Position numbers and translations under genes: made by a program
NCBI RefSeq assembly: GCF_011074955.1
Contig: NZ_WUQJ01000005.1
Location: 1-64,000, forward strand
Reading direction: 5' to 3'
Length of the DNA: 64,000 nt
DNA from: Marinobacter caseinilyticus
Lineage (GTDB): Bacteria > Pseudomonadota > Gammaproteobacteria > Pseudomonadales > Oleiphilaceae
The notes under the pieces: model-generated
Told to the model about the DNA's origin: nothing
The model's database searches: none
What the model saw: the letters and a program-made list of their open reading frames with translations, nothing else
Part shown: positions 25,421 through 35,020 of the stretch, one piece after another
Position numbering within the stretch: the stretch's first letter is position 1
How the letters are laid out: the number at the start of each line of letters is the position of its first letter

Positions 25421-26727
25421 TGGACATGACCGTACTCTCCATCGTGCTCGCCGTCGCCATGCTCGCCATGCTGGCGCTAGGTGTCTGGGTCTCGCTGACC
25501 CTGGTTGGCATTGGCGTGCTCGGCTTGCTGCTCTCGGGCAACGATCAGATCGGCTTGCTCTTCGCAACGTCGAGCTGGGGTGCCAGCACCGGCTGGTCCC
25601 TGACGGCCCTGCCCATGTTTATCTGGATGGGCGAGGTGTTGTTCCGCACCAAGCTGTCCGAAGACCTGTTCAAAGGGTTGTCACCCTGGCTGAGTGGGTT
25701 GCCGGGCAAACTGCTGCACGTCAACATCCTGAGCTGTGGTATTTTTGCCGCGGTGTCAGGCTCCTCAGCCGCTACCGCCGCCACGATTGGCCGCATGACT
25801 TTGCCGGAACTGAAAGCCCAGGGTTACAGCGACCGCATGGCCATTGGCACGTTGGCCGGGTCCGGCACCCTGGGGTTGCTGATTCCTCCGTCCATCATCC
25901 TGATCGTGTACGGCGTTGCCGCAGAAGTTTCCATTGGCCGACTGTTCATTGCCGGGGCACTTCCCGGCCTGATGCTCATCGTCCTGTTCATGGGCTATAC
26001 CATGATCTGGGCACTGCTGAACAAGAACGAGCTGCCAAGGAATGAGCATAAGCGAATCGGGTTTTCGGAAAAAATCAAAGCCCTGCGCATGCTGCTGCCC
26101 ATTGTTGGCCTGATTATTTTTGTGCTCGGCTCGATCTATGGCGGCCTGACCACACCGACCGAAGCGGCCGCTCTCGGCGTATTTGGCGCACTGTTGCTGG
26201 CTGCCGCCACCGGCTCGCTGAGTCTTCAGAGTTTCAATGAAAGTCTGCTTGGGGCGGTCAAGAGTTCCTGCATGATTGGACTGATTCTGGTGGGGGCCCA
26301 TTTTCTGACCCTGGCGATGGGTTTCCTCGGCATTCCGCGCGGCCTCGCTGAGTGGATCGGCGGCATGACCCTGTCGTCATTTGAGCTGCTGCTGTACCTG
26401 ACGGCGCTGTTTGTGATTCTGGGTTGCTTCCTGGACGGTATTTCCGTGGTCGTGCTGACGGTGGCCGTTGTCCTGCCCATGGTTCAGCAGGCGGGCATCG
26501 ATCTGCTCTGGTTCGGCATCTACATCGTGCTGGTGGTTGAGATGGCGCAAATCACGCCGCCGGTCGGGTTCAACCTGTTTGTCATTCAGGCGCTGACCGG
26601 CAAGGACATCCTGTACGTCGCCCGGGCGGCCTTGCCGTTCTTCCTCATCATCATGGCGGCTCTGTTTTTAATTGGCTGGTTCCCGGAGATCGTGACCTAT
26701 CTCCCACAAACCATGAGGGGCAGCTGA
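25420..26727 (+). CDS. TRAP transporter large permease (DctM)
   Basis: 435 residues, about 12 membrane segments. Family landmarks include LPMFIWMGEVLFRTKLSEDLF, AAVSGSSAATAATIGRMTLPEL and GTLGLLIPPSIILIVYGVAAE, which form the substrate and sodium sites of the elevator domain. The C-terminal VVEMAQITPPVGFNLFVIQAL is also typical. The ATG overlaps the DctQ stop by one base and has GGAGGA 6 bases upstream. pxpA follows 32 bases downstream. Confidence 0.95.
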   Translation: MDMTVLSIVLAVAMLAMLALGVWVSLTLVGIGVLGLLLSGNDQIGLLFATSSWGASTGWSLTALPMFIWMGEVLFRTKLSEDLFKGLSPWLSGLPGKLLHVNILSCGIFAAVSGSSAATAATIGRMTLPELKAQGYSDRMAIGTLAGSGTLGLLIPPSIILIVYGVAAEVSIGRLFIAGALPGLMLIVLFMGYTMIWALLNKNELPRNEHKRIGFSEKIKALRMLLPIVGLIIFVLGSIYGGLTTPTEAAALGVFGALLLAAATGSLSLQSFNESLLGAVKSSCMIGLILVGAHFLTLAMGFLGIPRGLAEWIGGMTLSSFELLLYLTALFVILGCFLDGISVVVLTVAVVLPMVQQAGIDLLWFGIYIVLVVEMAQITPPVGFNLFVIQALTGKDILYVARAALPFFLIIMAALFLIGWFPEIVTYLPQTMRGS

Positions 26728-26759
26728 CTGCCCCAGCCGAGTCATTCTGGAGGTCTGAA

Positions 26760-27494
26760 ATGAAACTTAATTGCGATATGGGCGAGAGCTTTGGCGCCTG
26801 GACCAAGGGCATGGACGCTGACGTCATGCCCTACGTCGACATGGCCAACATTGCTTGCGGCTTCCACGCGTCCGACCCGCTGACCATGGACGACACGGTC
26901 AAACTGGCGCTGGCAGAAGGTGTCAGCATCGGCGCGCACCCGGGCTATCCCGATCTGATTGGTTTTGGCCGTCGGCACATGGAGCTTGATCCGGCAGAGC
27001 TCAAGCCCATTCTGGTGTATCAGATGGCCGCCCTGGACGGTATTTGTCGTTCTCACGGAGCCGCGATCGAATACGTCAAGCCCCATGGCGCGCTTTACAA
27101 CCGGATGATGATCGACGAGCCCACGCTCAGGGCGGTGATGTCTGCGGTGCGGGCGTATGCCCCCCATTGCCCATTGGTGGTCATGGCGACGCCGGAATCC
27201 GAGCGGATTCTTACCCTGGCGGACGAATTTGGTCTTGAGATCTCGTTTGAGGCCTTCTCCGATCGCGCCTACAGCGATGAAGGCCGTCTGGTGAGCCGAT
27301 CCCAGCCGGGTGCCGTGCATCAGACCCGCGAGGCGATTGAACAACAGGTCACCCAGATCATCCGGGAAGGCTGCGTGACCTCAATCACCGGCAAGACGAT
27401 TCCGATCAAGGCTGATACCATCTGCATTCATGGCGACAGCCATCACGCCGCCGATGCCGCCCGACACATGCGGGACGTTGTTGACTCATTATGA
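26760..27494 (+). CDS. pxpA: 5-oxoprolinase subunit A (LamB/YcsF family)
   Basis: 244 residues, the usual family length. The signature start KLNCDMGESFGAW, then MANIACGFHASDP, GAHPGYPDL, KPHGALYN and the C-terminal ICIHGDSHHAA are diagnostic. PxpA with PxpBC hydrolyses 5-oxoproline to glutamate using ATP. A GGAGGTCTGAA ribosome site precedes the ATG. Its stop overlaps the pxpB start (ATGA). Confidence 0.96.
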   Translation: MKLNCDMGESFGAWTKGMDADVMPYVDMANIACGFHASDPLTMDDTVKLALAEGVSIGAHPGYPDLIGFGRRHMELDPAELKPILVYQMAALDGICRSHGAAIEYVKPHGALYNRMMIDEPTLRAVMSAVRAYAPHCPLVVMATPESERILTLADEFGLEISFEAFSDRAYSDEGRLVSRSQPGAVHQTREAIEQQVTQIIREGCVTSITGKTIPIKADTICIHGDSHHAADAARHMRDVVDSL

Positions 27495-28183
27495 AAATCG
27501 AGGCGATCAACGAGAATACCTGCATCGTTTACCTGGGCGACGAGATTCACGAAGCCATCGCCGAAAAGGTCAAACAGGCAGTGGTCAGCATTCGCCGGTC
27601 GATGGCGGACGTGGTGCTGGATTTGGTGCCCTCCTACACCTCGGTGATGGTGTGTTTCGACCTCACCAAAACCGATCGGTTCGCCATGGCCTCGCGCCTC
27701 AGGCAAGCGCTTGGTGAGCCGGTGGCGGAGAGCGAGCAGCCGGGCACGGCTCGCACCATCGAACTCCCGGTCTACTACGCCCCGGAAGTTGGCCTGGACC
27801 TCGACGACGTCTGCCAGGCATCCGGGCTGCCCATGGAGGACGTTGTCAATCTGCACACCGGTTGTGAATACCGCGTTTATGCCATCGGTTTCAGCCCCGG
27901 CTTTGCCTATCTGGGCAGCACCGACGATCGCATCGCGGTGCCTCGCAAATCGACGCCCCGGCTGAAAGTGCCCACCGGCAGTGTGGGTATCGCCGGTACC
28001 CAAACCGCGATCTACCCCAGCTCCACTCCCGGCGGCTGGCAAATTGTCGGCCGCACGCCGAGCAAGATGATCGACTGGAACAGCGAATCACTGGCGTTGA
28101 TGCAAGTGGGTGACCGGGTTCGTTTCCGGTCAATCGATCGGCAGGAATACATTGATCTGGGAGGCACCTTCGATGAGCTTTGA
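27491..28183 (+). CDS. pxpB: 5-oxoprolinase subunit B (KipI-like)
   Basis: 230 residues. Conserved family elements are DLVPSYTSVMVCFDLTK, YYAPEVGLDLDDVC, YRVYAIGFSPGFAYLG and PTGSVGIAGTQTAIYP, with PGGWQIVGRTP. KipI/PxpB forms a complex with PxpC that phosphorylates or activates the 5-oxoproline ring in cooperation with PxpA. It overlaps pxpA by 4 bp and pxpC by 11 bp, which suggests stoichiometric co-production. KipI in Bacillus also inhibits a sporulation kinase, but no such context exists here. Confidence 0.96.
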   Translation: MKIEAINENTCIVYLGDEIHEAIAEKVKQAVVSIRRSMADVVLDLVPSYTSVMVCFDLTKTDRFAMASRLRQALGEPVAESEQPGTARTIELPVYYAPEVGLDLDDVCQASGLPMEDVVNLHTGCEYRVYAIGFSPGFAYLGSTDDRIAVPRKSTPRLKVPTGSVGIAGTQTAIYPSSTPGGWQIVGRTPSKMIDWNSESLALMQVGDRVRFRSIDRQEYIDLGGTFDEL

Positions 28184-29111
28184 GGTTCTGAACCCTGGCA
28201 TGCTGGCGTTGCTGCAGGATACTGGCCGCGTGGGGTACCAGCATATCGGTGTCACCACCGGCGGTCCGATGGACGAACACGCATTCTTGTGGGCCAACCG
28301 CCTGCTGGACAACGCCCTGGATGCACCCCAGCTGGAAATCACCTTCGGCAAGCTCAGCCTGCTTGCCCATGCGGACACCTGCATCGCCATCACCGGGGCA
28401 GACCTGGGGGCCCGTATTAATGACCGGCAGGCGCCCCCATGGCGAACCCACCGTATCCGGCGCGGTGACCGAATCGACTTCAACACCCCGGTCGCGGGTT
28501 TGCGGGCCTACCTTGCGGTTGCCGGCGGATTTCAGCCGACATTCAAGCTGGGCAGTTGCGCCACGGTCAGCCGGGAAGGTCTGGGCGGGTTCGACGGCCA
28601 GGGCAAAAAACTGGCCAAAGGCGACAAGCTGCCGTTTAACCCGGGAACCGATGAGATAGCCGCAGCCGTGCCACCGGAAGACATTCCGGACTACCGACAA
28701 TCCTTGCGACTGGGCGTGATTCCTGGGTACCAATACCCGCACTTTACCCCGATTGCACGGGCCAGGTTTTTCAGCAGTGCTTATGAAGTGAGCCAAAACA
28801 TTGACCGGATGGGCTATCGCCTCACGGGCGACGCCGTCCATTCCGAATTGGATGGCATCATCTCCGAAGGTATCGCGTACGGCGCCATCCAGATACCGGC
28901 CGACGGTCAGCCGATCGTGTTAATGAAGGACCGCCAAACCATCGGCGGCTACCCCAAGATCGGCAGCCTCAGCGCCCTGGGCGCGGGCCAACTGGCCCAG
29001 CGCGGCCCCGGGGCCTCTGTCAGTTTCTACGCCATGGACGTCGGCGAAGCGGAAGCCCTGCGGATGATATTCCAGCACCGTCTGAAAACCGCGACGCTGC
29101 TTGCGGCCTGA
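28173..29111 (+). CDS. pxpC: 5-oxoprolinase subunit C (KipA-like, biotin-dependent carboxylase-like)
   Basis: 312 residues. The start FEVLNPGMLALLQDTGRVGY and the motifs GVTTGGPMDEHAFLWAN, TFGKLSLLAHADTCIAITGAD and SEGIAYGAIQIPADGQPIVL are typical of KipA. The ATG at 28173 lies inside the end of pxpB and has GGGAGGC 7 bases upstream. It ends the 5-oxoproline operon. A GC-rich dyad follows 17 bases after the stop. Confidence 0.96.
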   Translation: MSFEVLNPGMLALLQDTGRVGYQHIGVTTGGPMDEHAFLWANRLLDNALDAPQLEITFGKLSLLAHADTCIAITGADLGARINDRQAPPWRTHRIRRGDRIDFNTPVAGLRAYLAVAGGFQPTFKLGSCATVSREGLGGFDGQGKKLAKGDKLPFNPGTDEIAAAVPPEDIPDYRQSLRLGVIPGYQYPHFTPIARARFFSSAYEVSQNIDRMGYRLTGDAVHSELDGIISEGIAYGAIQIPADGQPIVLMKDRQTIGGYPKIGSLSALGAGQLAQRGPGASVSFYAMDVGEAEALRMIFQHRLKTATLLAA

Positions 29112-29127
29112 TGCATCATCACAGCCA

Positions 29128-29146
29128 GCGCGGGTTTAAACCGCGC
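29128..29146. terminator. Convergent hairpin after pxpC
   Basis: GCGCGG (29128-29133) pairs with CCGCGC (29141-29146) around GTTTAAA, between the pxpC stop and the FIST-like gene stop. No T-run follows in either direction. It may act on both converging transcripts. Confidence 0.55.
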
Positions 29147-29175
29147 CCTCTGGCATCGGCGCGCGAACACCGGCA

Positions 29176-30186
29176 TCAGGTTTGCTCGAGAATCAGGTAG
29201 ACGGCGGTTTGATTCAACAGCTGGTAGGCCACCTCACCGAAGGTGATCGGACCGGTAAGACCCGCCGTCTTCCGACCTTCAAGCTCTGAATACAAATAAT
29301 TCAGGATGCAGTTGCAGCCAAACAGGACGGTGCCCTTCTCCTCCCCCATCGCGGCGATGAACTGCTCCGGGTAGTTGCTCATCGGTTTTGCAAAATGATA
29401 GGTCACGTCTTCAAAGATCGGAGCAAAAAAGCTGACGGTTTCCGTGGCTTCATCGACGGCCTGAATGCTTACGTTTAACAGCGCGCCGCAATAATCCGCC
29501 ACCAGTGGCAATCGGTGATCGATTCTCAGATTCCGCATCGCTTGGGCGAGATTGCCGGGTTCGCCGTCGATGAGACAGGCGCCGGCGGAAAACCCGGTCT
29601 CCGGAAACTGAACACCGGGGCCATCACCAGCTTCAAACACATTCACCGTATGCACCGTCACGGTTTCATTGTCGGCAAGGGGGACGTGCAACACCACCGC
29701 GCGGTCATGAAACAGGGAGCCGGTTGTGCCGTCCACCACGGCGGCGTCGGCTTTGCCAATGTCACTCACATGAACCCCCGCCACCCAGCCGGCGATGGGT
29801 TTAATATACATATCCGGCAGATTGGGCGCGTGGCGCGCATACTCTTCCAGAATGTGACTGCCGGCCGGCAAAATAATGATCGAATAGCCCTCCTCGGGTG
29901 CGTCTTCCAGCACCTGTGCCAAGCGATCAGAATCGTAGTTAATGACGTTGGCAGGCCCATCGCCAAGACACTGGACAAATACCTTATCCTGACTGCACAC
30001 ACCCCCTTCCGACGCCATGAAATAGGGCGTCGTGCCACCGATCCATCGGCCTTTGGGCAGAGACAGCAATAGGGATTGCGCGCCGCCAATGGCGAGGTTG
30101 AGGCCCGCAAGAATCAATTCCGATGCCTGAGCCACCGACATCAGCCCGCCGCAATCACTGCCCTGCCGTACCTGCACCCCGCTCAC
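29176..30186 (-). CDS. FIST-like sensory domain protein
   Basis: 336 residues, soluble. The C-terminal half resembles a FIST_C domain (VLFGCNCILNYLYSELEG, then LTGPITFGEVAYQLLNQTAV), and the N-terminal half has a FIST_N-like arrangement (KPIAGWVAGVHV, VVDGTTGSLFHDRAVVLHV). FIST proteins are thought to bind small ligands such as amino acids and feed signalling systems. The start is a GTG that overlaps the upstream gene stop by 4 bases. It has no kinase, GGDEF or MCP output of its own, so the coupled upstream gene is the best candidate partner. Confidence 0.7.
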   Translation of the reverse strand: MSGVQVRQGSDCGGLMSVAQASELILAGLNLAIGGAQSLLLSLPKGRWIGGTTPYFMASEGGVCSQDKVFVQCLGDGPANVINYDSDRLAQVLEDAPEEGYSIIILPAGSHILEEYARHAPNLPDMYIKPIAGWVAGVHVSDIGKADAAVVDGTTGSLFHDRAVVLHVPLADNETVTVHTVNVFEAGDGPGVQFPETGFSAGACLIDGEPGNLAQAMRNLRIDHRLPLVADYCGALLNVSIQAVDEATETVSFFAPIFEDVTYHFAKPMSNYPEQFIAAMGEEKGTVLFGCNCILNYLYSELEGRKTAGLTGPITFGEVAYQLLNQTAVYLILEQT

Positions 30187-30914
30187 GATACCTGCACCTG
30201 TTCGTGTTGCCGGAAATCATTCAGCTGTTCAATTTCATGACTCAGTTGCGATTCGTGCTTGATGAAGAAGCGGCGAATGGCATTCACCCGGATGATCTTG
30301 GCATCGTGCGTTGTGAGTCTGGGAAATTCCTGGCGGGATCGGGCAAGCAATAACTTGAGGCCAAGCAGTCCCACATCAATAGGCCGCTCCGACTCCAGCA
30401 GCCTGAACCAGGCCGGATCTCCCGTGGGCGGGATAGCCTGAGCCGCCGGATTTACCTCATCGTCAGTCTCAAGCTTAAACAGCGTGCCATGGTCTTCACC
30501 GGTCAGCTGACCGTGGGTAACGGCGTGGCGAATCTGCCAGGCCAGATGGACATCAATCTCAAGCAAGCTGCACACCTGACGATACCCAAGTCCGGCCCGC
30601 AGGCACTCGATCACGCGCTGGGCCAGCCCATGGGTAAAATCACTCTCGACACTGCCGAGGAACGCCAACTGGGTATTGTCGTCGGGGCCGTCAGACGGTT
30701 CAGGCAGTGAGGCATGGATGAACGCTTTATATTCACCAATATTGGCATGGCGCCAACGACACTCCGGTCGTTCAATTGCCTTCCGGCCAAACCACTTTTT
30801 ACCCGTGCCAAGGTACGCATGCAGCTCTCTGCTTTGGGTGTCCACCTGAACCCGACTCACGTCCCACGGCTTCTTTAAACCCAACAGTTGCCGACACATT
30901 TCCGTGTCTCTCAT
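30183..30914 (-). CDS. Domesticated ISL3-transposase N-terminal-like protein
   Basis: 243 residues. The first 70 residues follow the N-terminus of ISL3-family transposases: MRDTEMCRQLLGLKKPWDV, a VQVD strand, CRWRHANIGEYKAFIHASLP. An HTH-like part comes next (ECLRAGLGYRQVCSLLEIDV). The CPxCG zinc-ribbon cysteines expected between the first two blocks are missing, and the DDE catalytic domain is absent. It is replaced by about 110 residues of unrelated helical sequence. No inverted repeats flank it. It overlaps the FIST-like gene by 4 bp. I infer a stable host protein that may keep DNA-binding or protein-contact function. Confidence 0.65.
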   Translation of the reverse strand: MRDTEMCRQLLGLKKPWDVSRVQVDTQSRELHAYLGTGKKWFGRKAIERPECRWRHANIGEYKAFIHASLPEPSDGPDDNTQLAFLGSVESDFTHGLAQRVIECLRAGLGYRQVCSLLEIDVHLAWQIRHAVTHGQLTGEDHGTLFKLETDDEVNPAAQAIPPTGDPAWFRLLESERPIDVGLLGLKLLLARSRQEFPRLTTHDAKIIRVNAIRRFFIKHESQLSHEIEQLNDFRQHEQVQVS

Positions 30915-31162
30915 AACGCCCCCGGCAAAAACAGTGATAGTTCATCTACTCTGTCACCCGGCCCAGGGCAGCGGAACAACGCCAATGGCGGAATTTCCTG
31001 CGACTTAGGTATTGCTCAATAAGATGCAGTCATTCACCGGCTCACAAGCCCTGCGTTGAGACGATCTGAATACCGGCAAACTGGTGGGATCGTTCAGGGG
31101 CTTGGCGCCACGCGCCACCCGGGGTCTGGATCGGCGACGTTGGATTGTTGAGACAGAATGGG

Positions 31163-31738
31163 CTAAGCCTCCGCCAGGTTCCGTGCCAGCATTTCCCGCA
31201 TCATGCTGTAACTCAAGCCCCAGATACAGCACCCCTGATAGCAACAACACGGCATGCGAAGCTTACCCAAAAGGGTTTGCCACAGGCGTACCGACTGGTT
31301 CTCCCCAGCGGCAAGATAGTCCAGAGGGATCCACACGGTCTGTTGTACCTCATGGTTGAGGGTCGGGGTATCCGGCCCCCGCCACTCAAACACATAAGGC
31401 GTCACCACCATGAGCCGCCAGCGACTGTGATGACGGGTTAACAGATCCGAGAGCCGAGCCCGGTAGTGGCCATGGTGAGACAGATCCAGACCGGTTTCCT
31501 CCAGCGTTTCTCGCAGCGCGGCGGCACGGGAACCGGTATCGTCCGCCTGCAATCGGCCACCCGGGAACGCCATATCACCGGACCAGGGGTCACCCTCACA
31601 GTGGGCGCGCTGGATAAACAGCAGTTCCGGGGGCAAACCCGGGGGACGACGATAAATCAGCGCCACCGAGGCACGGGTAACTCGACGCCGAAAAGGCAAC
31701 TTTCGCGGGCGTAATGCCGCGGCCCAAGTCCTGCTCAA
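31163..31738 (-). CDS. Nudix hydrolase, NudL/CoA-pyrophosphatase-like
   Basis: 191 residues. The Nudix region reads FPGGRLQADD...AALRETLEETGLDL. The spacing between the GG and REXXEE parts matches the NudL/CoA-pyrophosphatase subgroup, which has one extra residue compared with the basic Nudix box. Upstream, LLFIQRAHCEGDPWSGDMAF is the matching substrate-side motif. A Cys-rich stretch MPCCCYQGCCIWGLSYSMM near the end corresponds to the subgroup IWGLT region. Probable substrates are CoA or other nucleoside diphosphate derivatives. Confidence 0.88.
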   Translation of the reverse strand: MSRTWAAALRPRKLPFRRRVTRASVALIYRRPPGLPPELLFIQRAHCEGDPWSGDMAFPGGRLQADDTGSRAAALRETLEETGLDLSHHGHYRARLSDLLTRHHSRWRLMVVTPYVFEWRGPDTPTLNHEVQQTVWIPLDYLAAGENQSVRLWQTLLGKLRMPCCCYQGCCIWGLSYSMMREMLARNLAEA

Positions 31739-32015
31739 GACACACCCCTGTTACTCATCATCATTTTTCTTCTCAATGTTGCCTGGCCAGCGGATCATCA
31801 CCCAAGGGCTGAACACCCGAATCAGAATAGCATCCTTACGGTAACGGCAAAGCGTCGATGTCGGGATCTCGTGAAGGCCTCCTGAAGGGCCTGGAAGGAT
31901 TGGCCTGGTCTGAATGGTATTGGCAACAGGCTATGGCACCTGTCACATCGCATTTGACGAACACCATCCCACTGTGCAAAAAATAAGCTATGCTCGACGG
32001 AACGGAGCAATCATT
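31739..32015. other. Intergenic region upstream of cfa
   Basis: 277 bases between divergent nudix and cfa genes. CTATGCT at 31988-31994 is a good -10 element of the sigma-S-preferred type, 22 bases before the cfa start. No -35 at ideal distance is visible, which is also common for sigma-S promoters. Confidence 0.4.
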
Positions 32016-33185
32016 ATGAGCGGAATTCGTGGAATCCATAATCGTGTCCAACCCTCGCCAGTCCCCACCTTACGTGGCTCAGACAATCTCCGAACCATCA
32101 CCGAACTGCTCGCATCGGCCGATATTCAGATCGGTGGCAAACGCTCTTGGGACATCCGGCTTATTGCCCCGGGCGTGATCGAGAGAGTCTTGGCGCATGG
32201 CAACCTTGGGCTCGGCGAAGCCTATATGGATGGTGATTGGGAGTGCGACCAGTTGGATGAATTCTTCTGCCGACTGTTAAGTTGCCAGTTGGACCAGCAC
32301 TTCAAGTCCCGCAACCATCTGCTCTTGGTTCTCAGCGCAACCCTGCGCAATCTGCAGCGAGGCCGCCGAGTATGGCAGGTGGCGCGGGCGCACTATGACC
32401 TGGGCAATGATTTTTACCAGGCCATGCTGGGCCCCCGCATGGCGTACAGTTGTGGCTACTGGAAGCAGGCGGGCACCCTGGACCAGGCTCAGGACGCAAA
32501 ACTGGAGCTGATCTGTCGCAAGCTTGGCCTGCAACCGGGTATGCGCGTGCTCGACATTGGCTGCGGCTGGGGTTGCTTTATGGGGTATGCCGCAGAACAT
32601 TACGGTGTCGAATGCGTCGGTGTGACAGTGTCCCAGGCGCAGGCCGACTGGGCCCGGGCTCGCTACGCCGGAATGCCTGTTGAAGTCAGATTACAAGACT
32701 ACCGAGCGCTTCGGGGTTCGTTCGACCGGATCGCCAGCATCGGGATGTTCGAACACGTGGGCCGCAAGAACCACCGCGCATTCATGCAGGTTGTGGCTCG
32801 CTGCCTCACCAGGGACGGATTATGCCTGCTTCACACCATTGGTAAAAACAAGACCCACACCATCCCTGACCGGTGGACCGACAAGTACATATTCCCCAAT
32901 GGCGACTTACCGTCACTTCGTCAGATCGGTGATGCCTGTGAAGGCTTATTTGTGGCAGAGGACCTGGAAAATTTCGGGGCTGACTATGACAAGACGCTGA
33001 TGGCCTGGTACGCCAACTTTCACGCCGCTTGGCCGATCTTCAGTGACAGGCTGGGCGATCGTTTCTATCGGATGTGGCGGTATTACCTGCTGTCCTGTGC
33101 CGGGGCCTTTCGCGCCCGGGATCTGCAACTCTGGCAGTGGGTACTCTCCCAGACCGGTGTGCGTGGCGGGTACGTGCGGCCTTAG
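32016..33185 (+). CDS. cfa: Cyclopropane-fatty-acyl-phospholipid synthase
   Basis: Methylates unsaturated phospholipid acyl chains with SAM, 389 residues, like E. coli Cfa (382). The N-terminal lipid-binding part contains GLGEAYMDGDWECDQLDEFF. The methyltransferase part has HYDLGNDFYQAMLGPRMAYS, the SAM motif VLDIGCGWGCFMGYAAEHYG, and FDRIASIGMFEHVGRKNH. IPDRWTDKYIFPNGDLPS and the ending SQTGVRGGYVRP are typical. The ATG at 32016 has GGAGC upstream. A sigma-S-like -10 suggests stationary-phase expression. Confidence 0.96.
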   Translation: MSGIRGIHNRVQPSPVPTLRGSDNLRTITELLASADIQIGGKRSWDIRLIAPGVIERVLAHGNLGLGEAYMDGDWECDQLDEFFCRLLSCQLDQHFKSRNHLLLVLSATLRNLQRGRRVWQVARAHYDLGNDFYQAMLGPRMAYSCGYWKQAGTLDQAQDAKLELICRKLGLQPGMRVLDIGCGWGCFMGYAAEHYGVECVGVTVSQAQADWARARYAGMPVEVRLQDYRALRGSFDRIASIGMFEHVGRKNHRAFMQVVARCLTRDGLCLLHTIGKNKTHTIPDRWTDKYIFPNGDLPSLRQIGDACEGLFVAEDLENFGADYDKTLMAWYANFHAAWPIFSDRLGDRFYRMWRYYLLSCAGAFRARDLQLWQWVLSQTGVRGGYVRP

Positions 33186-33275
33186 GCGCCCACATTACCA
33201 ACGCGCAGAGACCTGCTGCGAATGGTTGTTGGCGACACAGAGTCATGGCCGTTCCCAGGGCAACCATGAGCGCCA

Positions 33276-34058
33276 CTATAAAACCTGACCAGACATAATA
33301 ATGCCCAGCCCCACGCCAATGGCGACGACACCCAAGCCTTTGGCCAGCCACTCTCCGCCCGGTATTGTTTTCTCCAGTAACACAATCACGGCAATGGCGG
33401 CGATCACACTCAGGTCCATCACCCCACCGACAAAAAGCAGCGCCATCAGCGCACCGCAGCAACCAACACAGTAGGCACCGTGGACAATGCCCATCTCAAA
33501 GGCACCCGCCAGACCCGGCTGCCAATGCCGAGTGATAAAGAACAGGGGCCCCCGACAATGAGTCAGGCAGGCTTGCTTCCAGGGTGACCATTGGTAGATA
33601 CCGGCCGCGATGAGTACCAGCCCACTGAACAGGACGTTCTGGCTACGCATCGCCGGGCTGAGCACCGCCCATAGTTCCAGCCGCCACTGCAGCGTCGTGG
33701 CGACCAGGCTGAACACGGCCCAAACAGTGAGGTAGCCGCCGGCAAACAAAGCCGTGCCAAGTGCGCCCCGAATCAGATGATTCTTTCGTGCGACCTGGCG
33801 GTAGAGCAGGATCATGGGCGCCGCACTCGGAAGCATCATGGCGATCATCATGATGCTCCACATGGCCAGCATCAGTGCAAAATACGTCGGCGTCCAGGGT
33901 TTGAACGCCATCATCTCGCCCGGCGCCATCGCGCCCATTTCTGCCGCTAATCCGGCCAGATACCACCAGCACAGCAGCATGACGGCCACCAAGGCAATCA
34001 GCGGTGCCAAGCCATCCCGGGTGGTCAGGTGAGCGAACGGACTGTGACCGCCACGCAT
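33276..34058 (-). CDS. DUF2182 integral membrane protein
   Basis: 260 residues with about seven membrane segments. The family core MWSIMMIAMMLPSAAPMILLY is visible near residues 70-90, with Met-rich faces that could hold a metal ion. DUF2182 proteins are described as predicted metal-binding membrane proteins; no biochemical role is established. It lies 18 bases after the DUF1326 gene, and the two families commonly occur together. The first helix is preceded by a short cytoplasmic stretch (RGGHSPFAHLTTRDG). Confidence 0.88.
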   Translation of the reverse strand: MRGGHSPFAHLTTRDGLAPLIALVAVMLLCWWYLAGLAAEMGAMAPGEMMAFKPWTPTYFALMLAMWSIMMIAMMLPSAAPMILLYRQVARKNHLIRGALGTALFAGGYLTVWAVFSLVATTLQWRLELWAVLSPAMRSQNVLFSGLVLIAAGIYQWSPWKQACLTHCRGPLFFITRHWQPGLAGAFEMGIVHGAYCVGCCGALMALLFVGGVMDLSVIAAIAVIVLLEKTIPGGEWLAKGLGVVAIGVGLGIIMSGQVL

Positions 34059-34076
34059 CCCTTTGCTCCTGCCAAC

Positions 34077-34712
34077 TTAGCGATAGACGCCGCTCGGTCC
34101 GATATCCATATGCACCAGATGGCTGTGACTGCCAATCAGTTCCAGCGGTATGCCTGCATGCGCTTTGGTATTGCCCTTGCCCACTTCCGCAACGTCGAAT
34201 TCAAAGCCATCCGGCAAGTCGATACGAGCCCGGATCTCTTCGCCAGTGACAGGATTGAGAATGGGCTCCCCGATGGCATCAATCAGGTTGCCCACCTTCA
34301 CGCTGGCGTGCCTCGCCTCAACATCACAGGAAATATCAATTGGACAGAAGATCGGATCGTGCATTTTGCTCAGAGTACCCGCAAAGACGTTAAAAAACGT
34401 CGCCCCGGGTTCCGACGTGTCACCCGACAAAATCGCCATGATGGCATCCCGCTGCGCGGCGTCCGCCCGTTCGTCAATAAACGCCTGGCCCTGACCATTG
34501 CCCTCATGGATGGCCCCCGGCCATTTCAAAGTCATGGCGAAAGCCAAATCATTCAGAGGTGTGTCACCGAAATGCCCATCCTCTACCCGTATCGCCGCGA
34601 AGGCCTCACAGTGGCCTCGGCTGGGTCGGCCACCGAACTGACACGGGCATCCGTAATCACAGTTGCAATTAACAAATTCCAGTCCCTTAATTCGCCAATC
34701 CACTTTGTTCAT
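34077..34712 (-). CDS. DUF1326 protein with CxC...CPC motif
   Basis: 211 residues. The N-terminal LEFVNCNCDYGCPCQF holds four closely spaced Cys (16, 18, 22, 24), followed by Cys35, the signature of the family and a plausible metal or redox site. No signal peptide is present. The C-terminal half is beta-rich. The start has GGAGAGGAG upstream. It is the first gene of a two-gene unit with DUF2182. A perfect palindrome TAGACGTCTA lies 24 bases before the start. Confidence 0.88.
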   Translation of the reverse strand: MNKVDWRIKGLEFVNCNCDYGCPCQFGGRPSRGHCEAFAAIRVEDGHFGDTPLNDLAFAMTLKWPGAIHEGNGQGQAFIDERADAAQRDAIMAILSGDTSEPGATFFNVFAGTLSKMHDPIFCPIDISCDVEARHASVKVGNLIDAIGEPILNPVTGEEIRARIDLPDGFEFDVAEVGKGNTKAHAGIPLELIGSHSHLVHMDIGPSGVYR

Positions 34713-34735
34713 CGCCGCTACTCCTCTCCCTAATG

Positions 34736-34745
34736 TAGACGTCTA
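34736..34745. promoter_or_regulatory. Perfect 10-base palindrome containing AGACGTCT
   Basis: TAGACGTCTA lies 24 bases upstream of the DUF1326 start. Its core equals the 8-base MetJ met box, but a MetJ operator needs at least two adjacent boxes and only one is seen. It could serve another dimeric regulator, or be chance. Confidence 0.35.
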
Positions 34746-34999
34746 TATAAGGTTAAACCCGTCTCATAGGACCGGCTATGCCTTCGTGGCAGGGTATTAG
34801 ACTTTTTAAGACACAAAACCGGATCAATATTCTTGCTGGATTTATGGCAAAAGACGGATTGAAATGATCGTCGAGCAACCAGAGGCAGGCAGGTTAGCGC
34901 TATGTCACATGGGGGACGTATACCGGATTCATTGTGCTGACCTGAATGGCCATGGCGCGGGCTGGCCCGGGCGTTTGGTTCCCGGACCCGTCAATGCTC

Positions 35000-35020
35000 A
35001 CCCGATGAACAGAATCGGGT
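35000..35020 (-). terminator. Hairpin downstream of the EfpL gene
   Basis: ACCCGAT and ATCGGGT form a 7-bp stem with a 7-base loop, 13 bases beyond the EfpL stop on the minus strand. There is no T-run, so efficiency is uncertain. Confidence 0.45.

Follow-up and report, generated by a model that had tools for sequence, protein, structure and literature searches.

The question raised by this locus is whether a gene that begins like a transposase of the ISL3 family, and that lacks the catalytic part, is a host gene, and what such a gene would do beside a FIST-like neighbour. Transposase-derived regulators are best documented in eukaryotes. The window (the whole stretch of 64,000 nucleotides of Marinobacter caseinilyticus DNA that was analysed) holds one such gene, here called the partner gene, directly upstream of a gene of the family DUF6976. 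The original prediction had described it as a host gene derived from an ISL3 N-terminus, with the catalytic domain and the zinc site lost. Relatives were sought in samples of 369 genomes of the class, 293 of the order, 349 of the phylum and 124 of the genus. The features are listed in the table.

Features of the partner gene and its neighbour (positions in the window)
Feature	Positions	Strand	Remarks
Partner gene, 243 aa	30183-30914	-	ATG ORF
Residues 1-72, beta-rich, collinear with the ISL3 N-terminal/zinc-ribbon region, cysteines missing	30699-30914	-	
Residues 93-136, helix-turn-helix (HTH) region, ISL3-like	30507-30638	-	HTH_23 in orthologues; lowest pN of four segments
Residues 137-160, variable linker	30435-30506	-	pLDDT < 50 for 138-158; highest pN
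Residues 163-238, C-terminal helical unit, one copy here (3-5 in tandem elsewhere)	30201-30428	-	
DUF6976 protein, 336 aa, predicted FIST fold	29176-30186	-	PF22396, E 5.3e-127
Degenerate AAGT-N14-GCnnnnGT element (spacer 13, last base differs)	30982-31006	-	Alignment to orthologues

The partner ORF overlaps the downstream ORF by 4 bp (30183-30186). Its protein contains the motifs MRDTEMCRQLLGLKKPWDV and then CRWRHANIGEYKAFIHASLP, followed by an HTH-like stretch with predicted helices at residues 95-106, 111-118 and 122-133. No inverted repeats of at least 14 nt flank the gene between 29000 and 31300; the sole pair of at least 14 nt in this interval is 76% complementary and has one arm within the gene. 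The open frame, the 4-bp overlap and the absence of terminal repeats had been predicted, and all three were confirmed. In its own genome the protein matched only itself at E <= 1. With a single copy and no flanking inverted repeats, the objection that the gene might be one of many copies of a mobile element fails.

The predicted absence of the zinc cysteines and of the DDE region also held. No CPxCG pair was seen in the partner protein by reading, no Pfam match to DDE_Tnp_ISL3 (PF01610) was obtained with it, and a six-frame search of 26000-35000 with a seven-row profile of the ISL3 DDE region was negative (best E about 0.7). One PF01610 match in the same genome was rejected as an ISL3 DDE region: by reading, it lies in a desaturase-like protein. 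PF01610 matches positions 79-196 of desaturase-like proteins (L045-L049), perhaps the 'DesA/ISL3 alpha bundle tail' of NCBIfam. The predicted structure of the partner protein is modest (pLDDT 73, pTM 0.48). Foldseek gave no match to this model at E <= 0.001, a result compatible with a known fold, and fold comparison placed HTH proteins at Z <= 3.7, which is weak. Sequence comparison with the PDB gave chance-level matches only (best E 0.19), and PADLOC found nothing in the three proteins scanned.

The ISL3 link of the window protein was visible only via relatives, profiles or plasmid tblastn. Taken alone, the protein matched no ISL3 model of Pfam (HTH_23 was seen at E 0.16, below cut-off) and nothing in NCBIfam. 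When it was compared by tblastn with 72,556 plasmid records, two matches were obtained, both on plasmids of Polaromonas sp. JS666: one over residues 1-143 (E 3e-4), where nothing is annotated, and one over residues 1-132 (E 4e-4), annotated as an ISL3 family transposase. A profile of six orthologues matched 16 of the 369 class genomes, with 4 partner proteins and 12 transposase-like N-termini. Ten ORFs, some of them truncated, were taken from 9 of these 12 genomes as the ISL3-type set (G341, G291 and G249 were left out). The two of them that were tested with NCBIfam (L013 and L018) were both over the ISL3 transposase cut-off. When the 22 orthologues were aligned with the ten ISL3-type transposases by hhalign, E was 2.1e-13 over residues 1-135. 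As a control, an N-terminal profile of the ten transposases was run against the partners: 31 of 32 were over the inclusion threshold, with no other sequence among 1973 ORFs, and the N-terminal part of G642 was missed (E 0.72). The ten transposases had been found with the orthologue profile, so the hhalign result, the alignment and the profile control are not fully independent. The plasmid tblastn and the matches of two distant partners to curated models are independent lines. Of these partners, the one of G379 reached 28.0 bits with Zn_ribbon_ISL3 (cut-off 25.5) and the one of G177 21.6 bits, below the cut-off; both gave partial matches below cut-off to the NCBIfam ISL3 transposase model (E 1.1e-5 and 2.5e-7, respectively). 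HTH_23 was seen in 20 of the 22 orthologues, below cut-off where shown (best E 0.0017).

Residues 1-135 are thus homologous to the N-terminal region of ISL3 transposases. The ISL3 layout had been predicted for the first 70 residues; the motifs were found there and the similarity runs further, to about residue 135. The expected match to ISL3 profiles was not given by Pfam or NCBIfam for the window protein; it was given by hhalign, by the profile control and by the relatives.

Four cysteines (CPxC and CxC) are kept in the partners of G177 and G379, and the other aligned partners lack them. Among the relatives scanned, Zn_ribbon_ISL3 (PF14690) was over cut-off only in G379; weak matches were obtained in 3 of the 22 orthologues (best E 0.041). 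Zinc loss probably came after recruitment, because two distant relatives keep the zinc cysteines. Two full-length ISL3-type transposases, of 408 and 411 aa, also lack the zinc-ribbon cysteines (L018:272-1498 and L030:660-1895, genome G263), and the first is over the NCBIfam ISL3 cut-off all the same. Zinc loss alone is therefore no mark of domestication. It is true of the window protein, as predicted, and it is neither a trait of the whole family nor a diagnostic sign.

The rest of the protein had been predicted to consist of about 110 new residues. The last 75 or so (residues 163-238) proved to be a recurring unit, present one to five times per protein and, in at least one genome, in a protein that has no transposase part. 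One copy is present in the 22 proteins of Marinobacter, Pseudomonas and Halopseudomonas and in G340; other gammaproteobacteria have three (seven proteins from six order genomes), four (G379) or five (G177). In the order sample the unit was found in 8 of 293 genomes (the neighbourhood of one matching genome, G670, was left out). Two tandem pairs of partner and DUF6976 genes occur in G470 (L117:6237-10973). In G321 DUF6976 is preceded by an ORF that consists of the unit and lacks a transposase part, with E 2.3e-10 among 153 ORFs and 6.7e-9 among 4554. The ORF in the same place in G050 gave a weak match, second of the 153 ORFs (E 3.3e-4); among the 4554 its E was 0.0098, and it was outscored by an ORF of L071 lying opposite another gene (0.0015). 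Both ORFs were scored with a unit profile that left both out. The lone unit is an observation in G321 and is likely in G050, from its position. In neither lone-unit protein did the unit match a Pfam family. The unit was also considered as an ISL3 relic, and this was rejected (hhalign probability 0.2).

The neighbour is constant. Each of the 34 partner or lone-unit genes that were read with their surroundings is followed immediately, on its own strand, by DUF6976; these are the genes of the window, 21 named loci, G177, G379, G340, G321 and G050 and seven more from the order sample. At 19 of the 21 named loci the two ORFs share 4 bases. In the genus the partner was found in 17 of 124 genomes and DUF6976 in the same 17, at adjacent coordinates. 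DUF6976 was found in 6 of 369 class genomes, all six with the partner or a lone unit (the weak case of G050 counted), and in 3 of 349 genomes of the phylum sample. In one of the 17 genomes of the genus, G017 (L007, L110-L112), both genes are degraded: the partner match covers residues 1-89 only and DUF6976 is in three pieces.

The DUF6976 model (pLDDT 81, pTM 0.81) was nearest to the FIST domain of FBXO22, with four entries at Z 10.2-9.5 and, for the best, 201 residues at rmsd 4.1. Cyanuric acid hydrolases and barbiturase came next, at Z 5.4 and less. A resemblance of FIST to cyanuric acid hydrolases is described in the accessible part of the FBXO22 preprint (PMC11185555). Foldseek alone gave a weak match of the model to FIST (E 0.018). 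By sequence, FIST_C (PF10442) matched 8 of the 22 DUF6976 members (best E 0.0018), the window member not among them, and hhalign of DUF6976 with FIST proteins was weak (probability 25.6, E 7.5e-4). DUF6976 is thus predicted to have a FIST fold, with weaker support from sequence than from structure. That homologues of the partner always sit beside a FIST-like gene was borne out in all 34 genes, the fold of the neighbour being a prediction.

The 22 open orthologues are spread over three named genera and are 49-65% identical to the window protein. In the 14 least diverged orthologue pairs (13 of Pseudomonas/Halopseudomonas and one of Marinobacter, none including the window), dN/dS was 0.07-0.23. 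Mean pN over 52 pairs was 0.100 in the HTH, 0.114 in residues 1-72, 0.180 in the unit and 0.294 in the linker. The orthologues are under purifying selection, which is strongest in the HTH. The three-unit lineage keeps the HTH poorly; in G547 only positions 4-78 of the transposase profile are matched. DNA binding may therefore not be general.

The wider surroundings of the pair vary. In G177 it is followed by genes for a response regulator, CheW, an MCP, a CheA-type hybrid kinase and a receiver-kinase protein; the neighbourhood in G379 is similar, by reading. CheR- and CheB-like ORFs follow the pair in G050, also by reading, and a hybrid histidine kinase is encoded nearby in G321. REC-GGDEF and LapD-type GGDEF-EAL proteins adjoin the pair at a Marinobacter locus (L064), and a cNMP-CBS-DUF294 protein and an exonuclease follow it at a Pseudomonas locus (L067). 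A divergent neighbour in which a cNMP-binding domain is fused to an aldehyde-dehydrogenase region is found in G642, G461 and G547 (L115:5351-7108, L116:5158-6966 and L118:5077-6867). The window pair sits between ORFs resembling 5-oxoprolinase subunits (by reading) and a NUDIX gene, and no chemosensory gene adjoins it. Chemosensory or c-di-GMP neighbours are thus found in some lineages only; the location varies and the pairing is constant. When genome contigs were scanned with the partner alone as query, no relative was found, whereas an alignment used as query did find relatives. Phages gave no match, and the 8 pattern matches in viral contigs included no relative. With these results and only two ISL3-type matches on plasmids, carriage of the pair by mobile elements is unsupported.

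Upstream of the pair, the sequence AAGT-N14-GC[CGA]NNNGT is present in 19 of the 22 orthologues, a count made in the same, partly related sequences from which the pattern was derived. It is not present in this form in the window and is absent from 10 distant loci. In L062-L082 it lies about 90-100 bp before the start codon (133 in L082). At other spacers from 8 to 21 it occurred in none of 32 upstream regions; 0.09 of 32 were expected by base shuffling. This element is a candidate operator or promoter element. For an RNA element upstream, no consensus pairs were found, Rfam gave no match at threshold in 28000-34000, and there was one chance-level match.

The following mechanism is proposed. 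An ISL3 N-terminus with its zinc ribbon and HTH would have been recruited, probably in a single event, and fused to a unit whose partner is DUF6976. Catalysis would have been lost, and the zinc site would have been lost later in most lineages. The unit would dock on the FIST protein DUF6976, a putative sensor of some signal. The transposase-derived HTH would give the output, most likely by binding DNA as a regulator that the FIST protein switches. This reading, in which the partner and the FIST-fold protein make up a two-gene signalling module with the partner as its effector or adaptor, is given about even odds. The idea of a FIST-controlled effector was drawn by analogy with NosP, a FIST protein that controls a histidine kinase encoded beside it, according to the accessible part of PMC12570481. 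More tentatively, the module would consist of a FIST-fold sensor and of an ISL3 DNA-binding region fused to one to five FIST-docking units, whose number would set the number of sensors per effector.

The main rival, doubtful and yet a serious contender, is a scaffold or adaptor that does not bind DNA. The ISL3-derived domain would be structural or would serve protein interaction, and the protein would bring one to five FIST proteins to a complex of chemosensory or c-di-GMP signalling. The tandem units, the weak HTH of the three-unit lineage, the lone unit without an HTH in G321 and the MCP, CheW, CheA-type, CheR/CheB-like or GGDEF/EAL genes that adjoin several copies all fit such a scaffold. 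However, in the one-unit orthologues no segment is under tighter constraint than the HTH, and no such signalling gene is adjacent in the window or at some other loci.

A second rival concerns the direction of descent. In a tree of the N-terminal domains (6 of the 22 one-unit N-domains were taken), one branch (99/96) splits 16 recruited sequences from 10 transposase sequences; the tree is unrooted and many inner forks are weak. The single branch fits one recruitment; the direction, from transposase to host, is an inference. In the DUF6976 tree, for which 9 of the 22 one-unit DUF6976 proteins were taken, G321 and G050, the two genomes with a lone unit, fall apart, and G050 forms a long branch; the lone unit may be ancestral or a secondary loss. 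The one split of the N-domain tree fits either direction, so the N-terminal region of ISL3 transposases could instead stem from a DNA-binding host gene of the partner family. This is improbable: some genomes have several ISL3 matches (7 in G162), and such matches occur in many families of the class and on plasmids, whereas only 6 of 369 class genomes have the pair and transposase-like zinc cysteines are found in only two partners. The original claim of a host gene with an ISL3 N-terminus is supported in part: the origin, the single copy, the lack of a catalytic domain and the purifying selection stand, while the host function is putative and the direction of descent probable.

Very improbably, the ISL3 resemblance would be a convergence of a generic HTH and chance motifs. 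No curated ISL3 model matches the window protein itself, as this would predict, but the similarity is collinear over 135 residues, intermediates with zinc cysteines exist, Zn_ribbon_ISL3 is matched by G379 and a plasmid match was obtained by tblastn. A decaying insertion sequence whose frame is open by chance, suggested by an ISL3-like N-terminus without a catalytic domain and by the degraded pair of G017, is hardly tenable, being already contradicted by the purifying selection, the 22 open orthologues and the fixed partner, and having left no remnant of the DDE region or of repeats.

Because an ISL3-derived front part and a helical unit precede a FIST-type gene, the results suggest a signalling pair that has not been described before and that derives in part from a transposon. 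In the literature searched, which left most subscription journals outside, the name 'DUF6976' was absent. With the same coverage, no ISL3 domestication of this kind appeared by title or abstract among the best matches, and 'FIST domain' combined with 'transposase' gave only IS1311 typing, by title. The present case is a bacterial one. It can be traced from a transposase-like form that still has the zinc cysteines to a form without them in which the HTH is constrained, and it comes with a fixed partner gene and a unit that can be counted. For DUF6976 it offers a first lead, through the predicted FIST fold and, in some lineages, through neighbouring chemosensory or c-di-GMP genes.

Three known systems can be compared with the pair. 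ISL3 transposases (PF14690, PF13542 HTH_Tnp_ISL3, PF01610; NF033550) share the collinear N-terminal region of about 135 residues with the partner, and the zinc cysteines are common to them and to the relatives in G177 and G379. In contrast to these transposases, the partner has no DDE region and no flanking repeats, and it is a single-copy gene with an unrelated C-terminal unit and a fixed neighbour. Like DUF6976 by its predicted fold, NosP is a FIST protein encoded next to a putative signalling partner, as far as the accessible part of PMC12570481 describes it. DUF6976 differs from the FIST sensors NosP and FBXO22 in forming a Pfam family of its own, whose similarity to FIST_C is weak, and its partner is transposase-derived, whereas that of NosP is a histidine kinase. 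In the eukaryotic transposase-derived factors FHY3/FAR1 (PMC13306707) and in metazoan families (PMC10027918), a transposase part is likewise kept in a putative regulatory role, according to the accessible parts of both articles. Unlike these factors, the partner is bacterial, derived from ISL3 and paired with a protein of predicted FIST fold, and its DNA binding is putative.
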